From: Dromaius novaehollandiae
Lineage: Eukaryota; Chordata; Aves; Casuariiformes; Dromaiidae
Direction: 5' to 3'
Assembly: GCF_036370855.1 (NCBI RefSeq)
Contig: NC_088101.1
Coordinates: 1,185,501-1,249,500 of the forward strand
DNA length: 64,000 nt
A program made the translations under genes and the position numbers. How positions within the stretch are numbered: position 1 is the first letter of the stretch; every line of letters begins with the position of its first letter. Below are positions 2,357 to 20,756 of the stretch, piece after piece. The notes beneath the pieces are model-generated. The model made no database searches and had not been told where the DNA came from. It saw only the letters and a program-made list of their open reading frames with translations.

Positions 2357-4495
2357 TTATTTGGTTTTCGAACTGGCCATACAGGGGAATTGAAGGGGGA
2401 CTGTGCTGGGATCACAACTCCCTGTTTTTTCAGGTCCTCCAATACTGGGCTAATTCCCTCTCTGGCTCCCAAAGGTAACGGATAGGGTTTTACATTAGTC
2501 AGCCGGGAAGGGGGGAGGGGAGGCGTCGCTTGCAGCGAGCGCACTGCCACACCGAAATCTCCGGTCAGTCTTCTGACCTGAGGAACGCTGAAAGACCACG
2601 AATTCCCCTGGGAATCCCGCCACTGTTTCCCCTTCAGGACGTCTATGCCTAAGAGGTTCATTTGAAAAGGCCCCACAGCCACCATAGTGGCCACAGGACT
2701 CTCTTCCCCTGGGAACCACAATGTTACCGGGGTCATGGGCACAGTCTGGGTCTTCCCCAGAGCACTTAAAACTATTAGGTGTTTGGAGGGGACCGAGATG
2801 CCACACCGTTCCGCCTCACTCCGTGTTAACGCTGTAATTTGGGCCCCTGTGTCAATTAAAAAAGTTACAGGCCTTCTCTTCGGCCCCACCGCTAGGGTGA
2901 TTAACAAGTCTCCTTTGTTATTGCAGGTGAGCTGTCTTATAAACATCCGCCCTCCGCCTCCCCCCACACCCTGAGGGGGCGGAGGAGCCAGTTTTCCCGC
3001 CACCCTTTTGTCCTCCTTGAACTCCTCCCCCACGTTTAACGCCGGTGCGGGGGGTGGTTTCGGTCTGGGCGGGGGTCCCTGTCCGGACCACCTTCGCACC
3101 AGAAGCTCTAGTTTTTTGGTCGGGAGCCCGTCCATCAAGTCTCGGGGCACGCCTTTTTGCAGCCCCAATTGCCATAGTCCCTGCCGGGTCAGGGATCTTT
3201 CTCTTCTGGCTAAGTCTGGGCTCCTCCCAGAAAATGCCAGCGGCTTGTTTGCTGGCTCTGCCGCCCGCACAGCCCTAGTTTCTACCCTTTGGTAAATCCA
3301 GCTGACTGGCCCGTATTTTCTCTCATAATTAATCAATTCCTGGGCTATCTCCCCCCAGGTCCACACCTTTTTCCCTAGCCGACCATGCTCGGGGGTTACC
3401 ATCCCCTCCAGGGCAGCCGCGATTCTCTCCTCGCGGGGCACATTTTGGATTCTCCCCTGCAATTGAATCCCAATAGGTTTCAGGGAATCAGGAAGTCCCC
3501 GTATTAGGGGAGTCATCCGCTCGGGATCTACTGGCAATAACATCGGAGAGCTCAAGTTCGGCTTGAGTTCCCGATCGTACATCATTTGCAGACAAGCTGC
3601 CTTTTGTACACTTTCCAGCAACTGATCGACGGAACCTGTTATAGCTAGGGGATCCCCCCTTTCCAAAGGGTTCAGCCCCCCCGCCCAATACGCGGCCCTC
3701 TGAGTCAGGGACCACGGGGCTCGGCGATCGCCGGTTGTGAGGAACACGCCCGGGCCCCAATATCCCTCTGCCTCCTTTTCAGATAGCAGGATCCCGTCCC
3801 CCCCCCGACAGGGATACCCTCCACACGTATTCGGTTTCGGATTCCCTAGCCGTTTTGGCAAAATCCTTTCGCAGCTTGGCCAGTTCGGTAGCTGTGAAAG
3901 GGATTTCTTTGGTAACAACCTGGGGGCGGTTGTCGCTGTCATCCTCGTATACATATTCCGTTTTGACTAGTGGGCACATATGGGGTGGGCCGTCTACGGC
4001 CTCCTTTAATCTTTTTAGGTCCCTTTGGGGGTAAAATTGGTGTACCCCTTTTCCCTCGAGCAGCACCTCAGTTTTGGTGAGGGTGTCTGCCTCCCTCAGG
4101 AGCTGGTTTCTTAGCTCCTCTTTCAGTATCAGATTTTGGTGCTTCTCTTCCTCCAGTGCCCGCTTGGTTTCCCGTAATTGTTCTTGCAGCGGCGTTAGCG
4201 CCGCTTGCAGCGCGGCAACCACGGCCTCTGCCTGACAAGGTGCCCGCTGCCTGTCCTCCACCGCAGCTGCTAGGCACGCTCCTAGCACAGCGCAAACAAT
4301 AGCTTTCCCTTTTCCTCTCTTAACTTTAGCTTCTTTTTGCAAGACCGCTATTCGGTCCACTACACTTTGCAATTGGAACCAATGGTCCCGTGCCCAGTCT
4401 CGTCCCGGGGGCGAGGGACGAGAACGGTGTACTTCCAAAAGGTCATATAATTTCTCGATTTCCTCACAAAAATCGCCTGCCTTCTGGGCAGCCAT
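2332..4495 (-). pseudogene. gag: gag-protease of unit 1, frameshifted in a C run
   Basis: This is the same gene as at 9265-11427, but the C run at 3798-3806 has nine Cs where units 2 and 3 have eight. The extra base splits the reading frame into an N-terminal 238-codon part (3779-4495: coiled coil and start of capsid) and a C-terminal part ending at 2332 (rest of capsid, protease, start of RT). Other differences from units 2 and 3 are scattered missense changes, including one at residue 149 (K for Q) and others in the linker before protease. The break is private to this unit and therefore younger than the shared pol damage, unless it is a sequencing slip in a homopolymer. Confidence 0.85.
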
Positions 4496-4496
4496 A

Positions 4497-4799
4497 TCCT
4501 ACAAAGGGGATTTCGTCCCGGGAGGGCCAGACCTTAAAGGAGTCCAAGTTTCCCCTATACGCTCCCGGGAGGCCAAACCGTAAGCTACTACAAAAAATGT
4601 CCTACAAAGGGGATATCATCCTGAGGGGGTCACACCTTAAAATCCAAGTTTCCCCTATACACCCTCAGGAGGCCAAACCGTATACTAGTACAAAAATGTC
4701 CTACAAAGGGGATATCGTCCTGAGGGGGTCACACCTTAAAATCCAGTTTTCCCCTATACGCCCTCAGGAAGCCAAACCACAAACCAGTATACTAAAAAT
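4497..4799 (-). repeat. Leader triple repeat, unit 1
   Basis: Three ~100-bp repeats lie between the primer-binding site and the gag start, matching 11429-11731 base for base as far as I compared. See that entry for the covarying stem in each repeat. The stretch between these repeats and the primer-binding site (4800-4968) is unrepeated leader, rich in TCGT/ACGA-type motifs. Confidence 0.85.
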
Positions 4800-4968
4800 C
4801 TCACCATTCACTCCTTCCTTACGCTTCGTTCGTCTCCGGCCGCTTCCCTCGCGGGAGAGCGGAACCGCGGATCGGAACTCCGCACTCGCTTCGTACTTGT
4901 TCGTACGTCTCGTTCACACACACTCGCTCAGCACACCATAAGGTTGTACGACACTCTCGTCTCAAGGG

Positions 4969-4986
4969 ATCCTGTCCGTGACGCCA
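4969..4986 (-). other. Primer-binding site, tRNA-Ser-like (unit 1)
   Basis: On the minus strand this reads TGGCGTCACGGACAGGAT, starting with the TGG that pairs with a tRNA 3' CCA. It lies 6 bases downstream (retroviral sense) of the LTR edge. The closest tRNA I can recall is tRNA-Ser(CGA), with one mismatch in 18. Confidence 0.7.
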
Positions 4987-5083
4987 ATTAGATGTCCTGA
5001 TCCAGTATCGGGAGGGTTTCGTTACGATCCCAAGGACGAGATTAAGACGCTAAAACCAGTCAAATATCGTACAACCTTTTACC

Positions 5084-5089
5084 TTTATT
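5084..5089 (-). promoter_or_regulatory. LTR polyadenylation signal AATAAA
   Basis: The minus strand reads AATAAA about 90 bases before the retroviral 3' end of the LTR, the expected position for the R/U5 polyadenylation signal. The same hexamer is conserved in the other two array LTRs. Confidence 0.6.
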
Positions 5090-5717
5090 TTCCACAAAGT
5101 GGGGAGAAAAGGCGTGTGGGGGGGGGGAGGCGAAGGGAAAAAAGGGAACAAGGGTAAGGGGAAAAGACAGAGAAAAGTTGGAAAAGGAGAGAGGAAGCTA
5201 GCTACCACCACTCCGAGGCCGATGATGTTCCGCTGACTCCGCTCGAATCACAGCTCAAGCTGGGTGCCTCCGACGAGGGACGAGGAGCGAGGGCCGAGAG
5301 AGGGAGTGAGAAAGAGATTGGGGGGGGGGGGGCGAACAAAGAAATCCCTCGGCAATTATAGCTTTTTCAAATTAAGTTTTCCCACCCCTCACGTGCTAGT
5401 TCAGACCAATAGTAATATTTGGGTCTGGGGTCTCCTGCTCCTTATTGGGTCTCATCACTGTCCCTAGGTAGGCCGTTTACTGTTGCCGTTTCTGCTGACA
5501 GGTGTGTCTCCATTCTTAGGTCCAGCCATTAGCTCTCAAGGTCCTGACAAAGAAGGTGATAACTTCAGCAATTAGCACTGTTTCAGCAGTGCAGAGGAAT
5601 GCAAATTGCTGGTAACTCCCTTATCATTCCTGCCTGCAGCAGCTCTGGGCCCTTTCTCACTGTACTAGGGAGTGCGGCCTAAGGCTTCAGCAAATTTAGC
5701 CACTCATGCCAAGCAGG

Positions 5718-5724
5718 TTTTATA
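5718..5724 (-). promoter_or_regulatory. Candidate LTR TATA box
   Basis: The minus strand reads TATAAAA about 241 bases into the LTR. If used, the R region up to AATAAA would be about 600 bases, unusually long. A weaker CTATAATT-type site on the minus strand near 5355 would give a more usual R. The choice cannot be made from sequence alone. Confidence 0.35.
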
Positions 5725-5965
5725 GAAGTTGTGCTAAAAACGGACAATAATTTACAGTCCAGATCCCAGAGTCTCTGCCCGATTGCGGTCTCATTCAGTG
5801 CAGGCTCGGTGTGTCCCGGGTGGTCGCAGGGAGACCTTTTCAGGGGTCGCAGCAGCTCAGTCCTGTTTCCGCTGGGAACAGATGGCTTGTTCGGGGTTAT
5901 GGTTCGCTTGCATCTTATGTACCAAGAAATGTTCAAGGCAAAAGTTCACTCATCTGTCCGCCACA

Positions 5966-6306
5966 CCACCCCGTGACTTAAACATTGATTGGTACGTCTC
6001 CTTCCTGAAGTCTTCATAGCCTTCGTCCATGGTGATAATATGAGACAGAGAGAGAGAGAGACCAGTAGGAAATATAGAAAAGATAGAAGCACGCAGGGAA
6101 CAAGTTGTGGGAAGAGTAAAAGGAAAGGTACTTAACAGCGATTAAACAGAGGTCTTGCTCAATGCAAGCTAATTCTTTAACTTCATAGAACAAAAATCAA
6201 AACTGAGATAACGAGGTAAGTGATTGTTACAACAAGTATAAAACAGCAAATGCGTTGTGGATGTTAATATGCAGTTGCCTCCTTCAGGATAAACTGGGAG
6301 TGGGTT
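5966..6306 (-). other. 3' untranslated region of unit 2, between env stop and LTR
   Basis: This 341-bp non-coding stretch separates the env stop from U3. It contains a short GA-dinucleotide tract near 6047-6060. A polypurine tract should abut the LTR at 5966; only a weak G-rich GGGGTGG is visible there on the minus strand, so the plus-strand primer site may be degenerate. Confidence 0.6.
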
Positions 6307-7803
6307 TTAAATGATGGGTACTGTGGTTGGCCGTGGCCGATGGATGGCACGGATTTTCTTTATGCCGTCAGGTGAGGTGGTCGGAACAAATTGCATATTT
6401 GACACAACATGTCGGATTAATTGAACAAAGCAAGGAATTATACAAGGTAAGAACATCAAAGCGGCAACCACGCATGACAAATACAATATTAACTGTTTCA
6501 CCCACAGTGCCCCCGGTAACCAGGACCACAAATCGCCACTCCAGCTGTTCCAGGTTTGGACAGGGACGTGGGCTATTTTTCTGATATCTTTGGTTAACTG
6601 GAGAACTGCCTTGCCTACATCATCTATTTCTAAACAACAGTTGGAAATATTTAATTTCCCACACACCCCTCCCTCTTCAGCTAACAGATAGTCTAAAACC
6701 ATGCGGTGCTGAAGGATTGCCGTGCGCATCTGTTGGGACTGGAGAGTTAAAAGATCTATTGCATCAGCGGTTTTGTTGGTAATAATTTCTAGAGCCACTT
6801 TTAGGTTGTAAATTGGTTCTCTCACCCCCGATATTAGTTCATTAGGATTCCAGGTTGCAGGCCCATAATGTTGAATTATTTGTTCAGGAGGCCACTCATT
6901 TCCCCATTTTTGCATCCCACCCAAATCTACCTTAATGGATCGCGTCTTACGGGCAACCCTTCTGTCCCCGAGGTTATCATATACCTTTATGCCTAACCGA
7001 GGTCCGCCTGTTTCTGGTAAAAGGAAAAACAGTGGTCTGATAATCCCTATGTAACAAATTCCCGACCACCCCGCGGGTAAAAATTTATATGCTGTGTGTC
7101 CACAGATCCAATAATGCCCCTTCTTAGCTCCAATGCCCTGAGCAAATGGCCCGTTTATCCCTGGTGGGAATTGAAAGTAAGTTGTGTCTCTGTCACCCAG
7201 AGGGCTGAAAAATGTGGTTGCCCCATCACCTATTCGGCCGGTACAATACCAAGCCCCAGAAGTGTCTTCCCATTCGCAGGTTTGCTTGTAAGGGGGATAA
7301 TTGGGTCGTTGGTGAGTTACAGTTTCATTTTTGTTTGACCAGTATCCCCCAAGTCCCCAATTGTGCCCCATTTCATTGAGCCACGTCCATAGCTGGAGAT
7401 TCCTGTCTTTATCGAGCAGTTTACAAGTGAGTGTCCATTGACTTTCCCCCACTTCAATCCCTCCCTCCTGGGTACAATTTAAACAATATTGGCCCATGGC
7501 TGGGAACTGAATTGGCCAGGTCCCACCGTCGTTCCACGTGTCATCCTCGGTTTCACTGTAATTGCTTACGATCTGGTCTGGGGTGAGGGGTGTGGACATC
7601 CATGGCCAGCTTGATAACCCTATCGGTCCTCTGCACACCCAGCAGTGGCTTAAATTGAAAGTTTGGCTTACTGCTTTTGCCAGCAACACGAACTCGTTGT
7701 TCTCGAAGGGATTAAATGGGTTGGGGGAAGGTAGAGGGAGTGGTCGTTCGTCGCCCTCATGGATGCATCCTTGAATCTGGATGGTCCAGAGCAGTAGATG
7801 CAT
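6307..7803 (-). CDS. env: Envelope glycoprotein precursor, intact 498-codon ORF (unit 2)
   Basis: This encodes a retroviral surface/transmembrane precursor for receptor binding and membrane attachment. Start is the ATG at 7801-7803, followed by a short hydrophobic leader (residues 2-11); the frame is also open upstream into pol. Seen in order: C-W-V-C at 54-57 (CxxC of gamma-type surface subunits), several N-glycosylation sequons (near 50, 81, 109, 159, 343, 385), furin-type R-K-T-R at 285-288, a heptad-like region at about 320-370, an immunosuppressive-domain-like stretch at about 356-380, C381 and C389-C390 (spacing CX7CC, not the usual CX6CC), and a membrane anchor at about 436-464 with a ~34-residue tail. 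No hydrophobic fusion peptide follows the cleavage site. Resemblance to ERV3-type envelopes is my recollection of the family. Function is unproven; a full-length ORF in a dead provirus may reflect youth of the array or selection. Confidence 0.88.
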   Translation of the reverse strand: MHLLLWTIQIQGCIHEGDERPLPLPSPNPFNPFENNEFVLLAKAVSQTFNLSHCWVCRGPIGLSSWPWMSTPLTPDQIVSNYSETEDDTWNDGGTWPIQFPAMGQYCLNCTQEGGIEVGESQWTLTCKLLDKDRNLQLWTWLNEMGHNWGLGGYWSNKNETVTHQRPNYPPYKQTCEWEDTSGAWYCTGRIGDGATTFFSPLGDRDTTYFQFPPGINGPFAQGIGAKKGHYWICGHTAYKFLPAGWSGICYIGIIRPLFFLLPETGGPRLGIKVYDNLGDRRVARKTRSIKVDLGGMQKWGNEWPPEQIIQHYGPATWNPNELISGVREPIYNLKVALEIITNKTADAIDLLTLQSQQMRTAILQHRMVLDYLLAEEGGVCGKLNISNCCLEIDDVGKAVLQLTKDIRKIAHVPVQTWNSWSGDLWSWLPGALWVKQLILYLSCVVAALMFLPCIIPCFVQLIRHVVSNMQFVPTTSPDGIKKIRAIHRPRPTTVPII

Positions 7804-9015
7804 CTTGGTCAGACCACCACCTTTGAAAACATAAATAAGAACAAACTCGCTCCTCGGGTCAGGAGGAGGGAATAATCCATTTTGTGTGAATCTTGTAGGT
7901 TTTCCCACTTGCATCTTTTGCTCTCCGAATATATTTATTATTCTATTAACCTCCCAGGCATTTTGCTCCCAAAAAGGAAGCCATTTCAGGCAGCCTTTGA
8001 ACACCATATGTGAGTCCGTGTAGGTGTGTACAGGGGAAGTAGCCTGGCTTTTGCATTGGGATACGCTCCACACTGCAGCCAGCTCTCCCACCTGCGCACT
8101 GCCCTTTCCCTCTGTAATGATCTGCTCCTTAGTCCCCACTTGGAGCGCCACAGCCCGGTATCTCCAGGTTTTCCCTTCCCACTTTGAGGAAGCATCTGTG
8201 AACCATGCATTTAGGATCTGATCGGAAAATGTGGGAGCTACTTGAATTACAGAGGGAAGTTGGGGGGTTTCTTTATTCAAGTCTGCCTCATCTTGTATAT
8301 TTAATGCTTTAGTGGCTCCCTCTGTTACGGAGAAGATTTTACAATAATGCTTTATTTGTGCATACCATTTTCGTACAGAGGCTCTCTGAGCCACCCTGTC
8401 AGGGGGCGAGGTCCCTGCCAGGACTGCTTTGGTCACCTTAAACGGACCTCGGAGAACTATGGTTTGCTTTCGAATAGCTCGTTCAGCCTCCCTTACAGCA
8501 AGGCTGACTACAAACAGCCCCTTCTCCCATAGGTAGATAAAGAGCCCAGTCTGGGCAAATCCCCATTCGATCTGGATAGGGTTGGTGGGGTGGACTGGCC
8601 CCAAAGCTTGGTAGGCGTTTGCCTCAAAAACCAGCAGCTGCAACGCCTCATCGTGGACCGAGGTCCGCTCCCAGTGAGCCCTTTTCTGTAGTAAGTCATA
8701 TAATGGCCTGACAACAATTGAAAAGTCAGGAGTGTGCTTCCTCCAAAACATAAGCAGCCCTAGAGCATGTTGCAAGTCCCTTTCGGACTCCAGCATTTTA
8801 ACTGAGTCCAACGAGGACAGGCTATCCGGGGGAATGCAGGTCATCCCTCCCCTCCACCAAATTCCCAGAAATTTTACCTCGCTGGAGGGAGTTTGGATCT
8901 TTTCGGGCGGAATTGTCAGCCCTATCCGCTCTAGGTGGGCAATAATGTCGCACTGCGTTTTCTCAACGTCCTCTACCCGGCTCCCTCCCACAAGCACATA
9001 TGGGGACAGTTTCAA
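7804..9015 (-). pseudogene. pol: pol remnant of unit 2: RT C-terminal part, truncated RNase H, fused to env
   Basis: Residues 1-404 of a 902-codon open frame whose remainder is env. Visible: the residues just after the missing YxDD box (V-L-V-G-G at 7-11), RT thumb and connection (F-L-G-I-W near 49-53; F-W-R-K-H near 90-94), then RNase H with three acidic catalytic residues, D274 in T-D-A-S, E311 in G-E-L-A-A-V-W, and D334 in T-D-S. The fourth acidic residue and the C-terminal part of RNase H are absent. After residue ~366 the sequence changes to a pre-env stretch and reaches the env ATG at codon 405. A zinc-binding HHCC domain and DDE integrase, normally several hundred residues here, are completely missing. 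The frame opens with TTG inside the RT domain, so it is not a real gene start. Confidence 0.87.
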
Positions 9016-9289
9016 GCTCTTGTGCTAGCGCATGATGGGCTAGTGTAGGGGAGTGCTTGTACCCCTGAGGCAGTCGGGTGAACGTGTATTGCTGTCCCTC
9101 CCACGTGAAGGCAAAACGCTCTTGGTCCTCAGGCTGCAAAGGGACCATAAAAAACATGTCTTTGACATCGATTGTTGCCATCACAGGGTGGGACTGCTCC
9201 TGGATAGTCGCTATTAATTCAGCAATGTTTGGCACAGCTGCCATCAATGGGCCTGTATTGTTATTTAATAGTCTACAGTTAGTCTCCAC
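8963..9289 (-). pseudogene. pol: Reverse transcriptase finger/palm fragment (unit 2)
   Basis: This 108-codon open stretch continues RT in a different frame from the gag-protease ORF, which stops at 9265. It starts at a GTG that is only the first in-frame codon of the overlap. It contains V-K-D-M-F-F (first catalytic aspartate) at about residues 42-47 and L-P-Q-G-Y-K-H-S-P-T at about 74-83, both hallmarks of RT. Homology then passes to the third frame at about 9000-9010, where the YxDD catalytic pair should be but no D-D can be read in any frame. The enzyme would be inactive even if frames were bypassed. I do not reconstruct it. Confidence 0.86.
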
Positions 9290-11427
9290 TTATTTGGTTT
9301 TCGAACTGGCCATACAGGGGAATTGAAGGGGGACTGTGCTGGGATCACAACTCCCTGTTTTTTCAGGTCCTCCAATACTGGGCTAATTCCCTCTCTGGCT
9401 CCCAAAGGTAACGGATAGGGTTTTACATTAGTCAGCCGGGAAGGGGGGAGGGGAGGCGTCGCTTGCAGCGAGCGCACTGCCACACCGAAATCTCCGGTCA
9501 GTCTTCTGACCTGAGGAACGCCGAAAGACCACGAATTCCCCTGGGAATCCCGCCACTGTTTCCCCTTCAGGACGTCTATGCCTAAGAGGTTCATTTGAAA
9601 AGGCCCCACAGCCACCATGGTGTGCACAGGACTCTCTTCCCCTGGGAACCACAATGTTACCGGGGTCATGGGCACAGTCTGGGTCTTCCCCAGAGCACTT
9701 AAAACTATTAGGTGTTTGGAGGGGACCGAGATGCCACACCGTTCCGCCTCACTCCGTGTTAGCGCTGTAATTTGGGCCCCTGTGTCAATTAAAAAAGTTA
9801 CAGGCCTTCTCTTCGGCCCCACCGCTAGGGTGATTAACAAGTCTCCTTTGTTATTGCAGGTGAGCTGTCTTATAAACATCCGCCCTCCGCCTCCCCCCAC
9901 ACCCTGAGGGGGCGGAGGAGCCAGTTTTCCCGCCACCCTTTTGTCCTCCTTGAACTCCTCCCCCACGTTTAACGCCGGTGCGGGGGGTTGTTTCGGTCTG
10001 GGCGGGGGTCCCTGTCCGGACCACCTTCGCACCAGAAGCTCTAGTTTTTTGGTCGGGAGCCCGTCCATCAAGTCTCGGGGCACGCCTTTTTGCAGCCCCA
10101 ATTGCCATAGTCCCTGCTGGGTCAGGGATCTTTCTCTTCTGGCTAAGTCTGGGCTCCTCCCAGAAAATGCCAGCGGCTTGTTTGCTGGCTCTGCCGCCCG
10201 CACAGCCCTAGTTTCTACCCTTTGGTAAATCCAGCTGACTGGCCCGTATTTTCTCTCATAATTAATCAATTCCTGGGCTATCTCCCCCCAGGTCCACACC
10301 TTTTTCCCTAGCCGACCATGCTCGGGGGTTACCATCCCCTCCAGGGCAGCCGCGATTCTCTCCTCGCAGGGCACATTTTGGATTCTCCCCTGCAATTGAA
10401 TCCCAATAGGTTTCAGGGAATCAGGAAGTCCCCGTATTAGGGGAGTCATCCGCTCGGGATCTACTGGCAATAACATCGGAGAGCTCAAGTTCGGCTTGAG
10501 TTCCCGATCGTACATCATTTGCAGACAAGCTGCCTTTTGTACACTTTCCAGCAACTGATCGACGGAACCTGTTATAGCTAGGGGATCCCCCCTTTCCAAA
10601 GGGTTCAGCCCCCCCGCCCAATACGTGGCCCTCTGAGTCAGGGACCACGGGGCTCGGCGATCGCCGGTTGTGAGGAACACGCCCGGGCCCCAATATCCCT
10701 CTGCCTCCTTTTCAGATAGCAGGATCCCGTCCCCCCCCGACAGGGATACCCTCCACACGTATTCGGTTTCGGATTCCCTAGCCGTTTTGGCAAAATCCTT
10801 TCGCAGCTTGGCCAGTTCGGTAGCTGTGAAAGGGATTTCTTTGGTAACAACCTGGGGGCGGTTGTCGCTGTCATCCTCGTATACATATTCCGTTTTGACT
10901 AGTGGGCACATATGGGGTGGGCCGTCTACGGCCTCCTTTAATCTTTTTAGGTCCCTTTGGGGGTAAAATTGGTGTACCCCTTGTCCCTCGAGCAGCACCT
11001 CAGTTTTGGTGAGGGTGTCTGCCTCCCTCAGGAGCTGGTTTCTTAGCTCCTCTTTCAGTATCAGATTTTGGTGCTTCTCTTCCTCCAGTGCCCGCTTGGT
11101 TTCCCGTAATTGTTCTTGCAGCGGCGTTAGCGCCGCTTGCAGCGCGGCAACCACGGCCTCTGCCTGACAAGGTGCCCGCTGCCTGTCCTCCACCGCAGCT
11201 GCTAGGCACGCTCCTAGCACAGCGCAAACAATAGCTTTCCCTTTTCCTCTCTTAACTTTAGCTTCTTTTTGCAAGACCGCTATTCGGTCCACTACACTTT
11301 GCAATTGGAACCAATGGTCCCGTGCCCAGTCTCGTCCCGGGGGCGAGGGACGAGAACGGTGTACTTCCAAAAGGTCATATAATTTCTCGATTTCCTCACA
11401 AAAATCGCCTGCCTTCTGGGCAGCCAT
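9265..11427 (-). CDS. gag: Gag-protease-RT(N-terminal) polyprotein, 720 codons (unit 2)
   Basis: This encodes the structural precursor plus protease. The ATG at 11425-11427 has G at -3 and +4 and follows the leader repeats directly. Domains: N-terminal matrix-like region; long charged coiled coil (about 84-145); capsid-like region (about 200-410) with a conserved-looking W-R-x-S-L...D-G-I-L-L-S-E segment; proline/glycine-rich linker (about 473-515, including a G run); aspartic protease with D-T-G-A at 548-551 and L-L-G-I-D near 614-618; then the first ~60 residues of RT ending at W-R-L-T-V-D-Y and a stop. No CCHC zinc knuckle is present and no stop or frame change separates gag from protease, both unlike typical gammaretroviruses. 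RT continues in another frame (8963-9289). Protein sequence is identical to unit 3. Confidence 0.88.
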   Translation of the reverse strand: MAAQKAGDFCEEIEKLYDLLEVHRSRPSPPGRDWARDHWFQLQSVVDRIAVLQKEAKVKRGKGKAIVCAVLGACLAAAVEDRQRAPCQAEAVVAALQAALTPLQEQLRETKRALEEEKHQNLILKEELRNQLLREADTLTKTEVLLEGQGVHQFYPQRDLKRLKEAVDGPPHMCPLVKTEYVYEDDSDNRPQVVTKEIPFTATELAKLRKDFAKTARESETEYVWRVSLSGGDGILLSEKEAEGYWGPGVFLTTGDRRAPWSLTQRATYWAGGLNPLERGDPLAITGSVDQLLESVQKAACLQMMYDRELKPNLSSPMLLPVDPERMTPLIRGLPDSLKPIGIQLQGRIQNVPCEERIAAALEGMVTPEHGRLGKKVWTWGEIAQELINYERKYGPVSWIYQRVETRAVRAAEPANKPLAFSGRSPDLARRERSLTQQGLWQLGLQKGVPRDLMDGLPTKKLELLVRRWSGQGPPPRPKQPPAPALNVGEEFKEDKRVAGKLAPPPPQGVGGGGGRMFIRQLTCNNKGDLLITLAVGPKRRPVTFLIDTGAQITALTRSEAERCGISVPSKHLIVLSALGKTQTVPMTPVTLWFPGEESPVHTMVAVGPFQMNLLGIDVLKGKQWRDSQGNSWSFGVPQVRRLTGDFGVAVRSLQATPPLPPSRLTNVKPYPLPLGAREGISPVLEDLKKQGVVIPAQSPFNSPVWPVRKPNKWRLTVDY

Positions 11428-11428
11428 A

Positions 11429-11731
11429 TCCTACAAAGGGGATTTCGTCCCGGGAGGGCCAGACCTTAAAGGAGTCCAAGTTTCCCCTATACGCTCCCGG
11501 GAGGCCAAACCGTAAGCTACTACAAAAAATGTCCTACAAAGGGGATATCATCCTGAGGGGGTCACACCTTAAAATCCAAGTTTCCCCTATACACCCTCAG
11601 GAGGCCAAACCGTATACTAGTACAAAAATGTCCTACAAAGGGGATATCGTCCTGAGGGGGTCACACCTTAAAATCCAGTTTTCCCCTATACGCCCTCAGG
11701 AAGCCAAACCACAAACCAGTATACTAAAAAT
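11429..11731 (-). repeat. Leader triple repeat with covarying stem (unit 2)
   Basis: Three direct repeats start at 11429, 11532 and 11631 (spacing 103 and 99 bp) and end about 11731, lying directly upstream of gag in the 5' leader RNA. Each contains an 8-bp inverted repeat. In repeat 1 the arms are CCCGGGAG (11449-11456) and CTCCCGGG (11494-11501). In repeats 2 and 3 they are CCTGAGGG (11552-11559; 11651-11658) and CCCTCAGG (11594-11601; 11693-11700). Three base pairs differ between repeat 1 and the others, each changed on both sides so that pairing is kept. This is direct evidence for a conserved RNA stem with a loop of about 34-37 bases. Packaging, dimerisation or translation control are possible roles, by position only. 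Confidence 0.9.
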
Positions 11732-11900
11732 CTCACCATTCACTCCTTCCTTACGCTTCGTTCGTCTCCGGCCGCTTCCCTCGCGGGAGAGCGGAACCGC
11801 GGATCGGAACTCCGCACTCGCTTCGTACTTGTTCGTACGTCTCGTTCACACACACTCGCTCAGCACACCATAAGGTTGTACGACACTCTCGTCTCAAGGG

Positions 11901-11918
11901 ATCCTGTCCGTGACGCCA
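11901..11918 (-). other. Primer-binding site, tRNA-Ser-like (unit 2)
   Basis: Identical to 4969-4986: the minus strand starts TGGCGTCACGG. Six bases (TCTAAT in retroviral sense) separate it from the LTR edge at 11925, a longer spacer than the usual 0-3. Confidence 0.7.
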
Positions 11919-11924
11919 ATTAGA

Positions 11925-12897
11925 TGTCCCGATCCAGTATCGGGAGGGTTTCGTTACGATCCCAAGGACGAGATTAAGACGCTAAAACCAGTCAAATATC
12001 GTACAACCTTTTACCTTTATTTTCCACAAAGTGGGGAGAAAAGGCGTGTGGGGGGGGGGAGGCGAAGGGAAAAAAGGGAACAAGGGTAAGGGGAAAAGAC
12101 AGAGAAAAGTTGGAAAAGGAGAGAGGAAGCTAGCTACCACCACTCCGAGGCCGATGATGTTCCGCTGACTCCGCTCGAATCACAGCTCAAGCTGGGTGCC
12201 TCCGACGAGGGACGAGGAGCGAGGGCCGAGAGAGGGAGTGAGAAAGAGATTGGGGGGGGGGGGGCGAACAAAGAAATCCCTCGGCAACTATAGCTTTTTC
12301 AAATTAAGTTTTCCCACCCCTCACGTGCTAGTTCAGACCAATAGTAATATTTGGGTCTGGGGTCTCCTGCTCCTTATTGGGTCTCATCACTGTCCCTAGG
12401 TAGGCCGTTTACTGTTGCCGTTTCTGCTGACAGGTGTGTCTCCATTCTTAGGTCCAGCCATTAGCTCTCAAGGTCCTGACAAAGAAGGTGATAACTTCAG
12501 CAATTAGCACTGTTTCAGCAGTGCAGAGGAATGCAAATTGCTGGTAACTCCCTTATCATTCCTGCCTGCAGCAGCTCTGGGCCCTTTCTCACTGTACTAG
12601 GGAGTGCGGCCTAAGGCTTCAGCAAATTTAGCCACTCATGCCAAGCAGGTTTTATAGAAGTTGTGCTAAAAACGGACAATAATTTACAGTCCAGATCCCA
12701 GAGTCTCTGCCCGATTGCGGTCTCATTCAGTGCAGGCTCGGTGTGTCCCGGGTGGTCGCAGGGAGACCTTTTCAGGGGTCGCAGCAGCTCAGTCCTGTTT
12801 CCGCTGGGAACAGATGGCTTGTTCGGGGTTATGGTTCGCTTGCATCTTATGTACCAAGAAATGTTCAAGGCAAAAGTTCACTCATCTGTCCGCCACA
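11925..12897 (-). repeat. LTR shared by units 2 and 3
   Basis: This 973-bp LTR has the same TGT...ACA termini as the 4993 copy and is almost identical to it. It serves as the 3' LTR of unit 3 and the 5' LTR of unit 2. AATAAA is at 12016-12021 and the TATAAAA candidate at 12650-12656 (minus strand). A polypurine stretch (plus strand, about 12048-12130) and a G12 run near 12252 lie in the R/U5 half. Confidence 0.88.
12016..12021 (-). promoter_or_regulatory. LTR polyadenylation signal AATAAA
   Basis: Same position in the LTR as 5084-5089, minus strand. Confidence 0.6.
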
Positions 12898-13238
12898 CCA
12901 CCCCGTGACTTAAACATTGATTGGTACGTCTCCTTCCTGAAGTCTTCATAGCCTTCGTCCATGGTGATAATATGAGACAGAGAGAGAGAGAGACCAGTAG
13001 GAAATATAGAAAAGATAGAAGCACGCAGGGAACAAGTTGTGGGAAGAGTAAAAGGAAAGGTACTTAACAGCGATTAAACAGAGGTCTTGCTCAATGCAAG
13101 CTAATTCTTTAACTTCATAGAACAAAAATCAAAACTGAGATAACGAGGTAAGTGATTGTTACAACAAGTATAAAACAGCAAATGCGTTGTGGATGTTAAT
13201 ATGCAGTTGCCTCCTTCAGGATAAACTGGGAGTGGGTT
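12898..13238 (-). other. 3' untranslated region of unit 3, between env stop and LTR
   Basis: Copy of 5966-6306, including the GA tract near 12979-12992. No coding frame and no strong polypurine tract is visible. Confidence 0.6.
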
Positions 13239-14735
13239 TTAAATGATGGGTACTGTGGTTGGCCGTGGCCGATGGATGGCACGGATTTTCTTTATGCCGT
13301 CAGGTGAGGTGGTCGGAACAAATTGCATATTTGACACAACATGTCGGATTAATTGAACAAAGCAAGGAATTATACAAGGTAAGAACATCAAAGCGGCAAC
13401 CACGCATGACAAATACAATATTAACTGTTTCACCCACAGTGCCCCCGGTAACCAGGACCACAAATCGCCACTCCAGCTGTTCCAGGTTTGGACAGGGACG
13501 TGGGCTATTTTTCTGATATCTTTGGTTAACTGGAGAACTGCCTTGCCTACATCATCTATTTCTAAACAACAGTTGGAAATATTTAATTTCCCACACACCC
13601 CTCCCTCTTCAGCTAACAGATAGTCTAAAACCATGCGGTGCTGAAGGATTGCCGTGCGCATCTGTTGGGACTGGAGAGTTAAAAGATCTATTGCATCAGC
13701 GGTTTTGTTGGTAATAATTTCTAGAGCCACTTTTAGGTTGTAAATTGGTTCTCTCACCCCCGATATTAGTTCATTAGGATTCCAGGTTGCAGGCCCATAA
13801 TGTTGAATTATTTGTTCAGGAGGCCACTCATTTCCCCATTTTTGCATCCCACCCAAATCTACCTTAATGGATCGCGTCTTACGGGCAACCCTTCTGTCCC
13901 CGAGGTTATCATATACCTTTATGCCTAACCGAGGTCCGCCTGTTTCTGGTAAAAGGAAAAACAGTGGTCTGATAATCCCTATGTAACAAATTCCCGACCA
14001 CCCCGCGGGTAAAAATTTATATGCTGTGTGTCCACAGATCCAATAATGCCCCTTCTTAGCTCCAATGCCCTGAGCAAATGGCCCGTTTATCCCTGGTGGG
14101 AATTGAAAGTAAGTTGTGTCTCTGTCACCCAGAGGGCTGAAAAATGTGGTTGCCCCATCACCTATTCGGCCGGTACAATACCAAGCCCCAGAAGTGTCTT
14201 CCCATTCGCAGGTTTGCTTGTAAGGGGGATAATTGGGTCGTTGGTGAGTTACAGTTTCATTTTTGTTTGACCAGTATCCCCCAAGTCCCCAATTGTGCCC
14301 CATTTCATTGAGCCACGTCCATAGCTGGAGATTCCTGTCTTTATCGAGCAGTTTACAAGTGAGTGTCCATTGACTTTCCCCCACTTCAATCCCTCCCTCC
14401 TGGGTACAATTTAAACAATATTGGCCCATGGCTGGGAACTGAATTGGCCAGGTCCCACCGTCGTTCCACGTGTCATCCTCGGTTTCACTGTAATTGCTTA
14501 CGATCTGGTCTGGGGTGAGGGGTGTGGACATCCATGGCCAGCTTGATAACCCTATCGGTCCTCTGCACACCCAGCAGTGGCTTAAATTGAAAGTTTGGCT
14601 TACTGCTTTTGCCAGCAACACGAACTCGTTGTTCTCGAAGGGATTAAATGGGTTGGGGGAAGGTAGAGGGAGTGGTCGTTCGTCGCCCTCATGGATGCAT
14701 CCTTGAATCTGGATGGTCCAGAGCAGTAGATGCAT
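13239..14735 (-). CDS. env: Envelope glycoprotein precursor, intact 498-codon ORF (unit 3)
   Basis: The predicted protein is identical to that of unit 2 (6307-7803), with the same start (ATG at 14733-14735), CxxC, R-K-T-R cleavage site, CX7CC and membrane anchor. Perfect protein identity between two 1.5-kb copies in a provirus that cannot replicate points to very recent duplication, gene conversion, or an assembly duplication. It is not evidence by itself for selection on env. Confidence 0.88.
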   Translation of the reverse strand: MHLLLWTIQIQGCIHEGDERPLPLPSPNPFNPFENNEFVLLAKAVSQTFNLSHCWVCRGPIGLSSWPWMSTPLTPDQIVSNYSETEDDTWNDGGTWPIQFPAMGQYCLNCTQEGGIEVGESQWTLTCKLLDKDRNLQLWTWLNEMGHNWGLGGYWSNKNETVTHQRPNYPPYKQTCEWEDTSGAWYCTGRIGDGATTFFSPLGDRDTTYFQFPPGINGPFAQGIGAKKGHYWICGHTAYKFLPAGWSGICYIGIIRPLFFLLPETGGPRLGIKVYDNLGDRRVARKTRSIKVDLGGMQKWGNEWPPEQIIQHYGPATWNPNELISGVREPIYNLKVALEIITNKTADAIDLLTLQSQQMRTAILQHRMVLDYLLAEEGGVCGKLNISNCCLEIDDVGKAVLQLTKDIRKIAHVPVQTWNSWSGDLWSWLPGALWVKQLILYLSCVVAALMFLPCIIPCFVQLIRHVVSNMQFVPTTSPDGIKKIRAIHRPRPTTVPII

Positions 14736-15947
14736 CTTGGTCAGACCACCACCTTTGAAAACATAAATAAGAACAAACTCGCTCCTCGGGTCAGGAGGAG
14801 GGAATAATCCATTTTGTGTGAATCTTGTAGGTTTTCCCACTTGCATCTTTTGCTCTCCGAATATATTTATTATTCTATTAACCTCCCAGGCATTTTGCTC
14901 CCAAAAAGGAAGCCATTTCAGGCAGCCTTTGAACACCATATGTGAGTCCGTGTAGGTGTGTACAGGGGAAGTAGCCTGGCTTTTGCATTGGGATACGCTC
15001 CACACTGCAGCCAGCTCTCCCACCTGCGCACTGCCCTTTCCCTCTGTAATGATCTGCTCCTTAGTCCCCACTTGGAGCGCCACAGCCCGGTATCTCCAGG
15101 TTTTCCCTTCCCACTTTGAGGAAGCATCTGTGAACCATGCATTTAGGATCTGATCGGAAAATGTGGGAGCTACTTGAATTACAGAGGGAAGTTGGGGGGT
15201 TTCTTTATTCAAGTCTGCCTCATCTTGTATATTTAATGCTTTAGTGGCTCCCTCTGTTACGGAGAAGATTTTACAATAATGCTTTATTTGTGCATACCAT
15301 TTTCGTACAGAGGCTCTCTGAGCCACCCTGTCAGGGGGCGAGGTCCCTGCCAGGACTGCTTTGGTCACCTTAAACGGACCTCGGAGAACTATGGTTTGCT
15401 TTCGAATAGCTCGTTCAGCCTCCCTTACAGCAAGGCTGACTACAAACAGCCCCTTCTCCCATAGGTAGATAAAGAGCCCAGTCTGGGCAAATCCCCATTC
15501 GATCTGGATAGGGTTGGTGGGGTGGACTGGCCCCAAAGCTTGGTAGGCGTTTGCCTCAAAAACCAGCAGCTGCAACGCCTCATCGTGGACCGAGGTCCGC
15601 TCCCAGTGAGCCCTTTTCTGTAGTAAGTCATATAATGGCCTGACAACAATTGAAAAGTCAGGAGTGTGCTTCCTCCAAAACATAAGCAGCCCTAGAGCAT
15701 GTTGCAAGTCCCTTTCGGACTCCAGCATTTTAACTGAGTCCAACGAGGACAGGCTATCCGGGGGAATGCAGGTCATCCCTCCCCTCCACCAAATTCCCAG
15801 AAATTTTACCTCGCTGGAGGGAGTTTGGATCTTTTCGGGCGGAATTGTCAGCCCTATCCGCTCTAGGTGGGCAATAATGTCGCACTGCGTTTTCTCAACG
15901 TCCTCTACCCGGCTCCCTCCCACAAGCACATATGGGGACAGTTTCAA
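14736..15947 (-). pseudogene. pol: pol remnant of unit 3: RT C-terminal part, truncated RNase H, fused to env
   Basis: Identical protein to 7804-9015, with the same missing YxDD box, RNase H truncation, integrase loss and in-frame continuation into env. The pol-to-env junction lies at about 14840-14855. The opening TTG is not a true start. Confidence 0.87.
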
Positions 15948-16221
15948 GCTCTTGTGCTAGCGCATGATGGGCTAGTGTAGGGGAGTGCTTGTACCCCTGA
16001 GGCAGTCGGGTGAACGTGTATTGCTGTCCCTCCCACGTGAAGGCAAAACGCTCTTGGTCCTCAGGCTGCAAAGGGACCATAAAAAACATGTCTTTGACAT
16101 CGATTGTTGCCATCACAGGGTGGGACTGCTCCTGGATAGTCGCTATTAATTCAGCAATGTTTGGCACAGCTGCCATCAATGGGCCTGTATTGTTATTTAA
16201 TAGTCTACAGTTAGTCTCCAC
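15895..16221 (-). pseudogene. pol: Reverse transcriptase finger/palm fragment (unit 3)
   Basis: Identical 108-codon fragment to 8963-9289, with the frame change at its start (overlap with the gag-protease stop at 16197) and loss of the catalytic box at its end. Confidence 0.86.
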
Positions 16222-18359
16222 TTATTTGGTTTTCGAACTGGCCATACAGGGGAATTGAAGGGGGACTGTGCTGGGATCACAACTCCCTGTTTTTTCAGGT
16301 CCTCCAATACTGGGCTAATTCCCTCTCTGGCTCCCAAAGGTAACGGATAGGGTTTTACATTAGTCAGCCGGGAAGGGGGGAGGGGAGGCGTCGCTTGCAG
16401 CGAGCGCACTGCCACACCGAAATCTCCGGTCAGTCTTCTGACCTGAGGAACGCCGAAAGACCACGAATTCCCCTGGGAATCCCGCCACTGTTTCCCCTTC
16501 AGGACGTCTATGCCTAAGAGGTTCATTTGAAAAGGCCCCACAGCCACCATGGTGTGCACAGGACTCTCTTCCCCTGGGAACCACAATGTTACCGGGGTCA
16601 TGGGCACAGTCTGGGTCTTCCCCAGAGCACTTAAAACTATTAGGTGTTTGGAGGGGACCGAGATGCCACACCGTTCCGCCTCACTCCGTGTTAGCGCTGT
16701 AATTTGGGCCCCTGTGTCAATTAAAAAAGTTACAGGCCTTCTCTTCGGCCCCACCGCTAGGGTGATTAACAAGTCTCCTTTGTTATTGCAGGTGAGCTGT
16801 CTTATAAACATCCGCCCTCCGCCTCCCCCCACACCCTGAGGGGGCGGAGGAGCCAGTTTTCCCGCCACCCTTTTGTCCTCCTTGAACTCCTCCCCCACGT
16901 TTAACGCCGGTGCGGGGGGTTGTTTCGGTCTGGGCGGGGGTCCCTGTCCGGACCACCTTCGCACCAGAAGCTCTAGTTTTTTGGTCGGGAGCCCGTCCAT
17001 CAAGTCTCGGGGCACGCCTTTTTGCAGCCCCAATTGCCATAGTCCCTGCTGGGTCAGGGATCTTTCTCTTCTGGCTAAGTCTGGGCTCCTCCCAGAAAAT
17101 GCCAGCGGCTTGTTTGCTGGCTCTGCCGCCCGCACAGCCCTAGTTTCTACCCTTTGGTAAATCCAGCTGACTGGCCCGTATTTTCTCTCATAATTAATCA
17201 ATTCCTGGGCTATCTCCCCCCAGGTCCACACCTTTTTCCCTAGCCGACCATGCTCGGGGGTTACCATCCCCTCCAGGGCAGCCGCGATTCTCTCCTCGCA
17301 GGGCACATTTTGGATTCTCCCCTGCAATTGAATCCCAATAGGTTTCAGGGAATCAGGAAGTCCCCGTATTAGGGGAGTCATCCGCTCGGGATCTACTGGC
17401 AATAACATCGGAGAGCTCAAGTTCGGCTTGAGTTCCCGATCGTACATCATTTGCAGACAAGCTGCCTTTTGTACACTTTCCAGCAACTGATCGACGGAAC
17501 CTGTTATAGCTAGGGGATCCCCCCTTTCCAAAGGGTTCAGCCCCCCCGCCCAATACGTGGCCCTCTGAGTCAGGGACCACGGGGCTCGGCGATCGCCGGT
17601 TGTGAGGAACACGCCCGGGCCCCAATATCCCTCTGCCTCCTTTTCAGATAGCAGGATCCCGTCCCCCCCCGACAGGGATACCCTCCACACGTATTCGGTT
17701 TCGGATTCCCTAGCCGTTTTGGCAAAATCCTTTCGCAGCTTGGCCAGTTCGGTAGCTGTGAAAGGGATTTCTTTGGTAACAACCTGGGGGCGGTTGTCGC
17801 TGTCATCCTCGTATACATATTCCGTTTTGACTAGTGGGCACATATGGGGTGGGCCGTCTACGGCCTCCTTTAATCTTTTTAGGTCCCTTTGGGGGTAAAA
17901 TTGGTGTACCCCTTGTCCCTCGAGCAGCACCTCAGTTTTGGTGAGGGTGTCTGCCTCCCTCAGGAGCTGGTTTCTTAGCTCCTCTTTCAGTATCAGATTT
18001 TGGTGCTTCTCTTCCTCCAGTGCCCGCTTGGTTTCCCGTAATTGTTCTTGCAGCGGCGTTAGCGCCGCTTGCAGCGCGGCAACCACGGCCTCTGCCTGAC
18101 AAGGTGCCCGCTGCCTGTCCTCCACCGCAGCTGCTAGGCACGCTCCTAGCACAGCGCAAACAATAGCTTTCCCTTTTCCTCTCTTAACTTTAGCTTCTTT
18201 TTGCAAGACCGCTATTCGGTCCACTACACTTTGCAATTGGAACCAATGGTCCCGTGCCCAGTCTCGTCCCGGGGGCGAGGGACGAGAACGGTGTACTTCC
18301 AAAAGGTCATATAATTTCTCGATTTCCTCACAAAAATCGCCTGCCTTCTGGGCAGCCAT
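16197..18359 (-). CDS. gag: Gag-protease-RT(N-terminal) polyprotein, 720 codons (unit 3)
   Basis: Same protein as unit 2, start ATG at 18357-18359, with the C run at 17663-17670 at the eight-base length that keeps the frame open. Coiled coil, capsid-like region and D-T-G-A protease site are as described for 9265-11427. This is the 5'-most gag of the array in the direction of transcription, so it is the copy best placed to be expressed from the outer LTR at 18857-19573, although that LTR has an internal deletion. Confidence 0.88.
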   Translation of the reverse strand: MAAQKAGDFCEEIEKLYDLLEVHRSRPSPPGRDWARDHWFQLQSVVDRIAVLQKEAKVKRGKGKAIVCAVLGACLAAAVEDRQRAPCQAEAVVAALQAALTPLQEQLRETKRALEEEKHQNLILKEELRNQLLREADTLTKTEVLLEGQGVHQFYPQRDLKRLKEAVDGPPHMCPLVKTEYVYEDDSDNRPQVVTKEIPFTATELAKLRKDFAKTARESETEYVWRVSLSGGDGILLSEKEAEGYWGPGVFLTTGDRRAPWSLTQRATYWAGGLNPLERGDPLAITGSVDQLLESVQKAACLQMMYDRELKPNLSSPMLLPVDPERMTPLIRGLPDSLKPIGIQLQGRIQNVPCEERIAAALEGMVTPEHGRLGKKVWTWGEIAQELINYERKYGPVSWIYQRVETRAVRAAEPANKPLAFSGRSPDLARRERSLTQQGLWQLGLQKGVPRDLMDGLPTKKLELLVRRWSGQGPPPRPKQPPAPALNVGEEFKEDKRVAGKLAPPPPQGVGGGGGRMFIRQLTCNNKGDLLITLAVGPKRRPVTFLIDTGAQITALTRSEAERCGISVPSKHLIVLSALGKTQTVPMTPVTLWFPGEESPVHTMVAVGPFQMNLLGIDVLKGKQWRDSQGNSWSFGVPQVRRLTGDFGVAVRSLQATPPLPPSRLTNVKPYPLPLGAREGISPVLEDLKKQGVVIPAQSPFNSPVWPVRKPNKWRLTVDY

Positions 18360-18360
18360 A

Positions 18361-18663
18361 TCCTACAAAGGGGATTTCGTCCCGGGAGGGCCAGACCTTA
18401 AAGGAGTCCAAGTTTCCCCTATACGCTCCCGGGAGGCCAAACCGTAAGCTACTACAAAAAATGTCCTACAAAGGGGATATCATCCTGAGGGGGTCACACC
18501 TTAAAATCCAAGTTTCCCCTATACACCCTCAGGAGGCCAAACCGTATACTAGTACAAAAATGTCCTACAAAGGGGATATCGTCCTGAGGGGGTCACACCT
18601 TAAAATCCAGTTTTCCCCTATATGCCCTCAGGAAGCCAAACCACAAACCAGTATACTAAAAAT
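18361..18663 (-). repeat. Leader triple repeat (unit 3)
   Basis: Same three repeats as 11429-11731. The one difference seen is C to T at about 18623 in the third repeat, outside the 8-bp stem arms, so all three stems remain paired. Confidence 0.88.
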
Positions 18664-18832
18664 CTCACCATTCACTCCTTCCTTACGCTTCGTTCGTCTC
18701 CGGCCGCTTCCCTCGCGGGAGAGCGGAACCGCGGATCGGAACTCCGCACTCGCTTCGTACTTGTTCGTACGTCTCGTTCACACACACTCGCTCAGCACAC
18801 CATAAGGTTGTACGACACTCTCGTCTCAAGGG

Positions 18833-18850
18833 ATCCTGTCCGTGACGCCA
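18833..18850 (-). other. Primer-binding site, tRNA-Ser-like (unit 3)
   Basis: Same 18 bases as in units 1 and 2, six bases from the outer LTR at 18857. Confidence 0.7.
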
Positions 18851-18856
18851 ATTAGA

Positions 18857-19573
18857 TGTCCCGATCCAGTATCGGGAGGGTTTCGTTACGATCCCAAGGA
18901 CGAGATTAAGACGCTGAAACCGGTCAAATATCGTACAACCTTTTACCTTTATTTTCCACGAAGTGGGGAGAAAAGGCGTTGGGGGGGGGGGGGAGGCGAA
19001 GGGAAAAAAGGGAACAAGGGTAAGGGGAAAAGACAGAGAAAAGTTGGAAAAGGAGAGAGGAAGCTAGCTACCACCACTCCGAGGCCGATGATGTTCCGCT
19101 GACTCCGCTCGAATCACAGCTCAAGCTGGGTGCCTCCGACGAGGGACGAGGAGCGAGGGCCGAGAGAGGGAGTGAGAAAGAGATGGGGGGGCGGGCGAAC
19201 AAAGAAATGCAAATTGCTGGTAACTCCCTTATCATTCCCGCCTGCAGCAGCTCTGGGCCCTTTCTCACTGTACTAGGGAGTGCGGCCTAAGGCTTCAGCA
19301 AATTTAGCCACTCATGCCAAGCAGGTTTTATAGAAGTTGTGCTAAAAACGGACAATAATTTACAGTCCAGATCCCAGAGTCTCTGCCCGATTGCGGTCTC
19401 ATTCAGTGCAGGCTCGGTGTGTCCCGGGTGGTCGCAGGGAGACCTTTTCAGGGGTCGCAGCAGCTCAGTCCTGTTTCCGCTGGGAACAGATGGCTTGTTC
19501 GGGGTTATGGTTCGCTTGCATCTTATGTACCAAGAAATGTTCAAGGCAAAAGTTCACTCATCTGTCCGCCACA
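18857..19573 (-). repeat. Outermost (5') LTR of the array, internally deleted
   Basis: This is the 5' LTR of unit 3 and the right end of the array. It matches the 973-bp LTRs up to about 19208 and again from 19209 on, but about 255 bp (equivalent to about 12278-12532) are missing. The sequence AAAT/AAT flanks both sides of the gap, suggesting a microhomology deletion. It has more private substitutions than the two inner LTRs (for example near 18916, 18922 and 18960). The TATAAAA candidate (19326-19332, minus strand) and AATAAA (18948-18953) are retained. The right edge is set by the abrupt change after CCGCCACA at 19573. Confidence 0.85.
18948..18953 (-). promoter_or_regulatory. LTR polyadenylation signal AATAAA
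   Basis: Same position in the LTR as in the two inner copies, minus strand. Confidence 0.55.
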
Positions 19574-20535
19574 CAGGTGGGGAAAGGCAAAGGGGAGGCG
19601 AAGGGAAGAGGGGAAGAAGGGTAAGGGGAAAAAGAGAAAGCTGGAAAAGGAGAGAAGCAGCTAGCTACCACCACTCCGAGTCCGATGATGTTCTGCTGAC
19701 TCCGTTCGAATTACCGCTCAGGCTGGGTGCCTCCGAAGAGGGACCCTGAACAAAGAAATCCCTGGGCAATTATACTTTCCAATCTAAGCTCTCCACCCTT
19801 CATGCAGTAGTTTGGACCAACAGTAATATTTGGGTCTGGGGTCTCCTGCTCCTTATTGGGTCTCATCACTGTCCCTAGGTAGGCTGTTTGCTGTTGCGGT
19901 TTCTGCTGACAGATGTGTTTTCATTCTTCGGGTCCTGCCCTTCTCTCTCAAGGCCCTGACAAAGTAGTACTTCCACAGCAGTGACTGTAGGTGTTGTCTC
20001 CCAAGGTCCAGACAAAGGGAATATAATCTGGACCTCGAGATAGTCCAGACCGCCCCCTAATCAGCATTGTTTCAGCAGGGAGAGGAGGCCCTGCTCCCCA
20101 GGGTCCTGGCGCCCAAGCAGGCCTTATTTCAAAGCCTTGACATCCTTCCTCCCGGAGTGTAAAGCATAGGAATGCAAACTGCTTGTAGCTCCCCTATCTT
20201 ATCAGCCTGCACCAGCTCTGGGGCCCTTTCTTACTGAACTAGGAGTGCAGCCTAAGGCTTCAGCAAATTTAGCTACTCATGCTAAGCAAGTTTTATAGAA
20301 GTTGTGCTAAGCGGCAATAATTTACAGTCCAGGTCCCAAAGTCTCTGCCGGATCATGGTGTGGTTCAGTGCAGGCTCGGTGTGTCCTGAATGGTTGCAGG
20401 GAGACCATTTCGGGGGTCGCAGCAGCTTAGTCCTGTTTCCGCCGGGAACAGATGTCTTGTACGGGGTTATGGTTTGCTTGCACCTTATGTACCAAGAAAT
20501 GTTTAAGGCAAAAGTTCACTCATCTGTCCGCCACA
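19574..20535 (-). repeat. Older diverged LTR of the same family, interrupted by the array
   Basis: This 962-bp stretch aligns with the array LTR from a point about 105 bp inside its left edge up to the same CCGCCACA right end (20528-20535), with many substitutions. It also has about 130 bp in the middle (about 19960-20170) that the array LTRs lack. The missing left ~105 bp are not next to it, because the array LTR begins there instead. The simplest reading is that the provirus integrated into a pre-existing LTR of its own family, leaving the rest of that LTR beyond the left window edge. A solo LTR or a larger older provirus are both possible. Its TATA-like site (TATAAAA, minus strand near 20290) is kept. 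Confidence 0.8.
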
Positions 20536-20725: not shown

Positions 20726-20756
20726 GCTGACCGGACACCCACTCACTGCAGCCGCC

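Follow-up and report, generated by a model that had tools for sequence, protein, structure and literature searches.

Covarying hairpin repeats of variable number in the leader of an emu endogenous retrovirus family

Introduction

The question raised by this locus was whether the short repeats that precede gag in an endogenous retrovirus of the emu form RNA hairpins kept by selection, and what such hairpins might do for the virus. The DNA analyzed was a stretch of 64,000 nucleotides, referred to below as the window. A preliminary description of it had drawn attention to three repeats of approximately 100 bp at 11429–11731, each with an 8-bp inverted repeat in which changes on one arm are matched on the other. 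We examined these repeats in the window, elsewhere in the host genome, and in predicted structures of the leader RNA.

The proviral array and its leader

Self-comparison of the window revealed that its minus strand carries three proviruses arranged head to tail, with a period of 6932 bp and identities of 99.4–99.7%. Positions 1–19574 hold at least three proviruses joined through common LTRs, and the array continues past the low end of the window. The LTR common to two neighboring proviruses lies at 11919–12898 (minus strand; placed by self-comparison and end sequences, with an approximate 3′ boundary). The putative primer binding site (PBS) is at 11901–11918 on the same strand, an assignment based on sequence; the candidate tRNA is of the serine type. 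This site was found within three mismatches in 49 of the 64 distinct leaders of sufficient length.

An ORF of 720 amino acids (9265–11427, minus strand, ATG at 11427) encodes Gag and protease (Pfam gag-asp_proteas, E 3e-10). The zinc knuckle motif CX2CX4HX4C was absent from this ORF and from all 122 proteins examined, many of them partial models. There were 186 Gag relatives among 7995 scored candidates, and among the 120 matches listed all those with names were bird proteins. A second ORF, of 902 amino acids (6307–9015, minus strand), joins the C-terminus of reverse transcriptase (RT) and a partial RNase H to env, with RNase_H and TLV_coat matches; the latter make the transmembrane part of Env class I-like. 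The scanned pieces of this ORF matched no integrase family, also when rescanned at E up to 0.1. One RT fragment matched MLV-type and foamy-type RT about equally, a second matched only foamy-type Pr125Pol entries (E up to 0.01), and the nearest RT of a longer bird relative (P0111) was of the murine leukemia type. In other genomic copies, unlike the RT/RNase H-env fusion at 6307–9015, long open frames of as many as 1735 codons run through gag.

The repeats lie in the 5′ leader between the putative PBS and gag, a distance of approximately 490 nt. On the minus strand they occupy 11426–11528 (repeat 1, R1), 11529–11627 (R2), and 11628–11727 (R3), and R1 ends at the gag ATG, in agreement with the earlier placement just upstream of gag. 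The same layout had also been pointed out at 4497–4799 and 18361–18663 (minus strand), and sequence and self-comparison located it at both places. Because these are the leaders of neighboring, more than 99% identical members of the tandem array, they add no independent evidence.

Stems of the three repeats

Each repeat contains a pair of complementary arms, a and a′, which form a predicted stem of 9 bp rather than the 8 bp reported previously. In R1 the 5′ arm TCCCGGGAG (11494–11502, minus strand) pairs with the 3′ arm CTCCCGGGA (11448–11456) across a 37-nt loop. R2 has the 5′ arm TCCTGAGGG (11594–11602) and the 3′ arm CCCTCAGGA (11551–11559), and R3 has the same two arms at 11693–11701 and 11650–11658, again on the minus strand; the loops of R2 and R3 are 34 nt long. 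The preliminary description was accurate in stating that three pairs differ between R1 and R2/R3 (C-G to T-A, G-C to A-T, and A-T to G-C) and that each is matched on the other arm; exactly three were found. All three matched changes are transitions, and therefore each could have passed through a G-U pair in the sense RNA.

When the 16 differences between R1 and R2 were redistributed over the 99 aligned sites in 1,000,000 trials, three or more compensated pairs arose in 3.3e-4 of the trials, and three or more with none broken in 1.8e-4. These values (P ~2–3e-4) do not come from a blind test, since the stem had been noticed before it was tested.

The arms of R1 lie in a direct repeat (TTACGGTTTGG-CCTCCCGGGA vs. 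TTAAGGTCTGGCCCTCCCGGGA) around a palindrome, so that each arm is a copy of the same palindromic sequence. R2 and R3 no longer keep the direct repeat or the palindrome intact, but their arms still pair with each other.

Repeat number in the family

The host genome (1.47 Gb in 271 contigs) was searched for further copies. A DNA search in which 40 of 280 candidates were scored gave 44 matches. The loop motif was found at 837 places, compared with 198 for the reversed pattern, and the junction of R1 with gag, at up to two mismatches, at 292 places, compared with 15. From the junction counts we estimate roughly 275 elements of this kind in the genome, and many of them stand in tandem arrays. Among viral contigs, tblastn with the gag sequence or the gag alignment found no relatives; the loop motif matched eight of them.

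The number of repeats varied from one to five among leaders. Of 93 distinct leader stretches, 17 had one unit, 22 had two, 46 had three, 7 had four, and 1 had five; these counts are lower bounds, because diverged units may escape recognition and pieces of 411 bases may be too short to hold all of five units. A rearranged subfamily on contig C5 belongs to the one-unit class. A Gag-based search with a bird relative (P0035) gave 85 matches, from which 30 upstream pieces were taken whose leaders were new to the sample (one of them, L126, adjoins another from the same search, L120). All 30 of these leaders had R1, and 28 had two or more units. A gag tree for mapping the states of the arms was set aside, because 36 of its 54 inner branches were open and it was partly mislabeled, a loose anchor having sometimes taken an upstream repeat.

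A donor-like splice site was also found upstream of the repeats, with 72 sites in 88 leaders. We rejected it as a conserved donor immediately before the repeats, because GGTGAG was kept at only 32 of the 72 sites.

Covariation of the stem

A larger alignment, which had been proposed as a check on the stem, supported pairing at the level of the family. Among 63 distinct aligned units, 98.2% of the stem cells paired and five pairs had changed on both sides, whereas shifting the partner by one to three columns lowered the paired cells to 47–70%. The sample was then 147 loci of this genome, many of them overlapping or from arrays, which reduced to 107 distinct units, of which 47 were R1-type units and the remaining 60 belonged to the other type. 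These were compared with a tree-based null in which the substitutions of each branch were replayed at random sites. Paired stem cells amounted to 97.6% vs. a null mean of 82.2% (0 of 4000 replicates), cells changed on both sides to 126 vs. 5.9 (0 of 4000), and pairs changed on both sides to five vs. 1.3 (11 of 4000). With a smaller set of 75 units the corresponding counts were 37, 0, and 5 of 5000. Both nulls rest on parsimony and on trees made from the same units of approximately 90 columns, and their means differed (89.4% vs. 82.2%), so that only the direction of these comparisons is trusted.

For two of the five pairs changed on both sides, at alignment columns (17,64) and (19,62), nearly all of the variation separates R1 from the other repeats. 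Within R1 the stem varies at its central step: one pair occurs as C-G, U-G, U-A, and C.A, and the next as G-C, G-U, A-U, and A.C. The U-A state defines one variant class of eight locus identifiers (six separate places, since L062–L064 overlap) and is also present in L093 and L136. Further matched changes in R1, to A-U, were found in L083 and in L092; L083 and L093 each have a mismatch elsewhere in the stem. The wobble states of the central step recur.

An RNA hairpin is thus well supported and is the most likely reason for the matched changes. That R1 and R2/R3 came to differ by chance, as a founder effect, and happened to keep pairing is the least probable of the explanations considered: the signal does come largely from one old split in a stem that was noticed before being tested, but both the permutation values and the tree-based nulls speak against it.

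Variants that break the stem

The matched changes had been called strong evidence for a selected hairpin. That judgment was overstated: most of the covariation signal effectively comes from one old split, R1 vs. the other repeats, younger changes do not significantly avoid breakage, and correction of one arm from the other could also produce matched changes. Uncompensated changes, which had been named in advance as counterevidence, do exist and some are multi-copy. One mismatch was present in the R1 of 10 of the 30 leaders picked through gag. In the 147-locus sample, the central step of the R1 stem showed C.A or A.C at 15 locus identifiers, some of which overlap, and other R1 mismatches were seen in L083, L093, L100, L111, and L116. 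An A.C mismatch is also present in one of the upstream repeats of a multi-copy subfamily. In L133 an upstream unit is a hybrid, with a 5′ arm like that of R1, a 3′ arm like that of R2, and a single mismatch and a single wobble between them, which suggests exchange between units.

Among the younger single changes there was no significant avoidance of breakage (13 breaking changes vs. 16.5 expected; 937 of 5000 replicates as low), and columns of the stem changed as often as those elsewhere (1.94 vs. 1.81 substitutions per column). Most endogenous copies may drift after insertion, and breaking variants are therefore compatible with selection in the replicating virus. The case for such selection is one that rests on the old split and on a few younger matched changes.

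Matching without selection could arise if template switching, in replication or in reverse transcription, copied a change from one arm of these close inverted repeats into the other. The region is prone to slippage, as judged from the range of one to five repeats and from a deletion in L081 (540–620, approximate), which occurred between the direct repeats, removed the 5′ arm and loop of R1, and left a single palindrome before gag. The lack of significant purifying selection in younger copies would also fit such an origin. The matched changes, however, affect single pairs and are accompanied by wobble states, so that they look stepwise, and mismatches persist in so many copies that any correction must be inefficient. 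We therefore regard a purely mutational origin as possible but rather unlikely.

Strand asymmetry of the changes was looked for as a sign of selection on the RNA, and none was detected in the stem (C>T 12.0 vs. G>A 10.7). This lack of RNA-strand asymmetry, together with the GC-rich palindromic arms of R1, would be expected if the arms were elements of the DNA, such as paired inverted binding sites of a host protein. R2 and R3, however, have lost the palindrome and its sequence while the pairing stays, and G-U states recur; a function at the DNA level is very improbable.

Predicted folding of the leader

In the predicted fold of the full leader the three stems are local partners, with mean pair probabilities of 0.97 for R3, 0.96 for R2, and 0.92 for R1. 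The sense repeats were no better folded than their shuffles (z 0.37, 0.48, and 1.27), and the folding energy of the whole leader was ordinary (z 0.14); the antisense strand of R3 was relatively better folded (z −1.88). In L068, a unit with a mismatch, the predicted fold abandons the a:a′ stem. Predicted duplex energies were −17.9 kcal/mol for a:a′ of R1 and −16.4 kcal/mol for a:a′ of R2, compared with −6.5 and −8.9 kcal/mol for the mixed R1/R2 duplexes. Because the mixed duplexes are much weaker, the two types of arm would be expected to mispair little.

A search of 11300–13000 against Rfam at E up to 1 gave no match. The loops of 34–37 nt are unlike known packaging tetraloops, and no GACG tetraloop was present among the hairpin loops of 3–9 nt in the minimum-energy leader, which is a single predicted structure; the sequence GACG itself occurs five times in the leader. 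Nor is the palindrome of these repeats exposed for kissing in an apical loop, being confined to the arms of the R1 stem.

Elements b and b′ and upstream ORFs

Two further short elements are complementary to each other and nearly invariant. In R1 they are b, AGGGGA, in the loop (11483–11488, minus strand), and b′, TCCCCT, a short distance before the gag ATG (11437–11442, minus strand). Units were recognized by b and b′, and the conservation of these elements is therefore partly due to the method. The order a-b-a′-b′ would permit a pseudoknot. We do not claim one: b and b′ were complementary in 99.2% of cells, yet without covariation, and they had served to find the units. In the nested ensemble of the full leader the probability of b:b′ was zero, and forcing it cost 6.6–7.7 kcal/mol.

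These elements bear on the possibility that the leader controls translation, with stems and short upstream ORFs (uORFs) tuning gag initiation or b:b′ switching between translation and packaging. Such a role would suit the near invariance of b and b′, the end of R1 at the ATG, and the short uORFs of the leader. One uORF starts just 5′ of R3, at approximately 11740, and stops at the TAG of the R3 b motif; another, inside R2 at approximately 11550, reads ATG ATA TCC CCT TTG TAG. The ATG of the latter, however, is absent from R1 and R3 of the window, and the b:b′ pairing fares as poorly in prediction as described above, with the further reservation that b and b′ helped to define the units. We consider translation control improbable.

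In R2 and R3, TATAGGGGAAA and ATATCCCCTTT are also complementary base by base in parallel orientation, in addition to their 6-bp antiparallel match; the parallel complementarity is probably a coincidence.

Possible role and history of the repeats

The reading that we prefer, tentatively and at a little below an even chance, is that the repeats are a variable-number array of hairpins, kept by selection for pairing during replication and used in cis for packaging and/or dimerization. Packaging or dimerization, which the preliminary description had proposed alongside ribosome entry, appears to be the best-supported candidate role, because the position of the hairpins, their multiplicity, and their palindromic ancestry fit it.

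Since R1 contains the gag start, we infer that it is the older form. A short direct duplication of a stretch bearing the palindrome would have produced the R1 hairpin at once. As many as four copies of the unit of approximately 100 nt would then have been added upstream of gag, and these would have lost the self-complementarity of each arm while keeping the pairing between arms through matched transitions. A bolder version holds that a retrovirus lacking a nucleocapsid zinc knuckle labels its genome with hairpins of two orthogonal types, in an array whose copy number varies, a multivalent, VNTR-like tag for packaging or dimerization, in which the palindrome was duplicated and the stems diversified by compensation so that neighbors do not mispair. 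Taken as a whole, this version is doubtful enough that we would not expect it to hold.

Dimerization and packaging stem-loops of other retroviruses likewise lie between the PBS and gag (PMC5874298). Gammaretroviral leaders, such as those of MLV (SL-A to SL-D) and RD-114, have several stem-loops, some palindromic, that contribute to dimerization (PMC5874298). As far as that source describes them, the emu leader resembles these dimer linkage and packaging regions in having several stem-loops in the 5′ leader. It differs in that its units have been duplicated in tandem, in varying number, and have loops of 34–37 nt, that its palindromes are in the stem and in R1 only, that the predicted structure lacks the GACG tetraloop of gammaretroviral psi, and that its Gag shows no zinc knuckle. 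In foamy viruses, dimerization elements SI–SIII include a palindrome (SII) and an element overlapping the gag start (SIII), and Gag has no Cys-His zinc fingers (PMC5874298, PMC5035957). The emu family is similar in its palindromic leader element near gag and in its Gag without Cys-His zinc fingers, a likeness of description; unlike the emu repeats, tandem repeats do not figure in the available parts of the accounts of the foamy virus leader (PMC5874298, PMC5035957).

The nearest described mosaic found is XtERV-S of Xenopus tropicalis, which, in the available part of its description, has a serine-tRNA PBS, a Gag without a zinc finger, a gammaretrovirus-like transmembrane Env, and a leader of 158 bp (PMC8278194). 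The emu family shares the absence of a zinc finger in Gag and the TLV_coat-type Env; unlike the 158-bp leader, its own is approximately 490 nt from PBS to gag and contains the hairpin repeats. A serine PBS, if the candidate assignment in the emu family holds, would be a further likeness. In open-access literature searches for avian or tandem-repeat leaders, no such repeats were described in the titles and opening lines of abstracts listed, which is not proof of absence. What is new here is the repeat number of one to five, the R1 arms as direct copies of one palindrome, the pairing in R2/R3 that has outlasted the palindrome, and the poor predicted cross-pairing, all in a family whose Gag shows no zinc knuckle.

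If the hairpins are cis signals, the natural leaders of one to five units would constitute a dose series for the number of copies needed in genome selection, and this in a lineage in which no zinc knuckle was found in Gag. The route from palindrome to hairpin to orthogonal hairpin would also provide a readable case of new RNA elements arising.

Sequences near the array and other series

The outermost LTR of the array lacks approximately 246 bp by self-comparison, and a diverged LTR-like sequence at 19592–20536, 77–88% identical to the array LTR, adjoins it. Directly beside the proviral array, at 20304–22059, two overlapping ORFs match interferon-inducible GTPases (IIGP; the second with E 9e-58). 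Outside the array, at 27703–28208 and 28768–29965, are a 68-bp tandem repeat and a 151-bp inverted repeat with 94% identity. Evenly spaced series were also seen elsewhere in the genome, on contig C5 at approximately 73.83–73.87 Mb (spacing about 4982 bp), on C2 at approximately 70.56–70.59 Mb (about 5947 bp), and on C1 at approximately 170.65 Mb (4699 bp).
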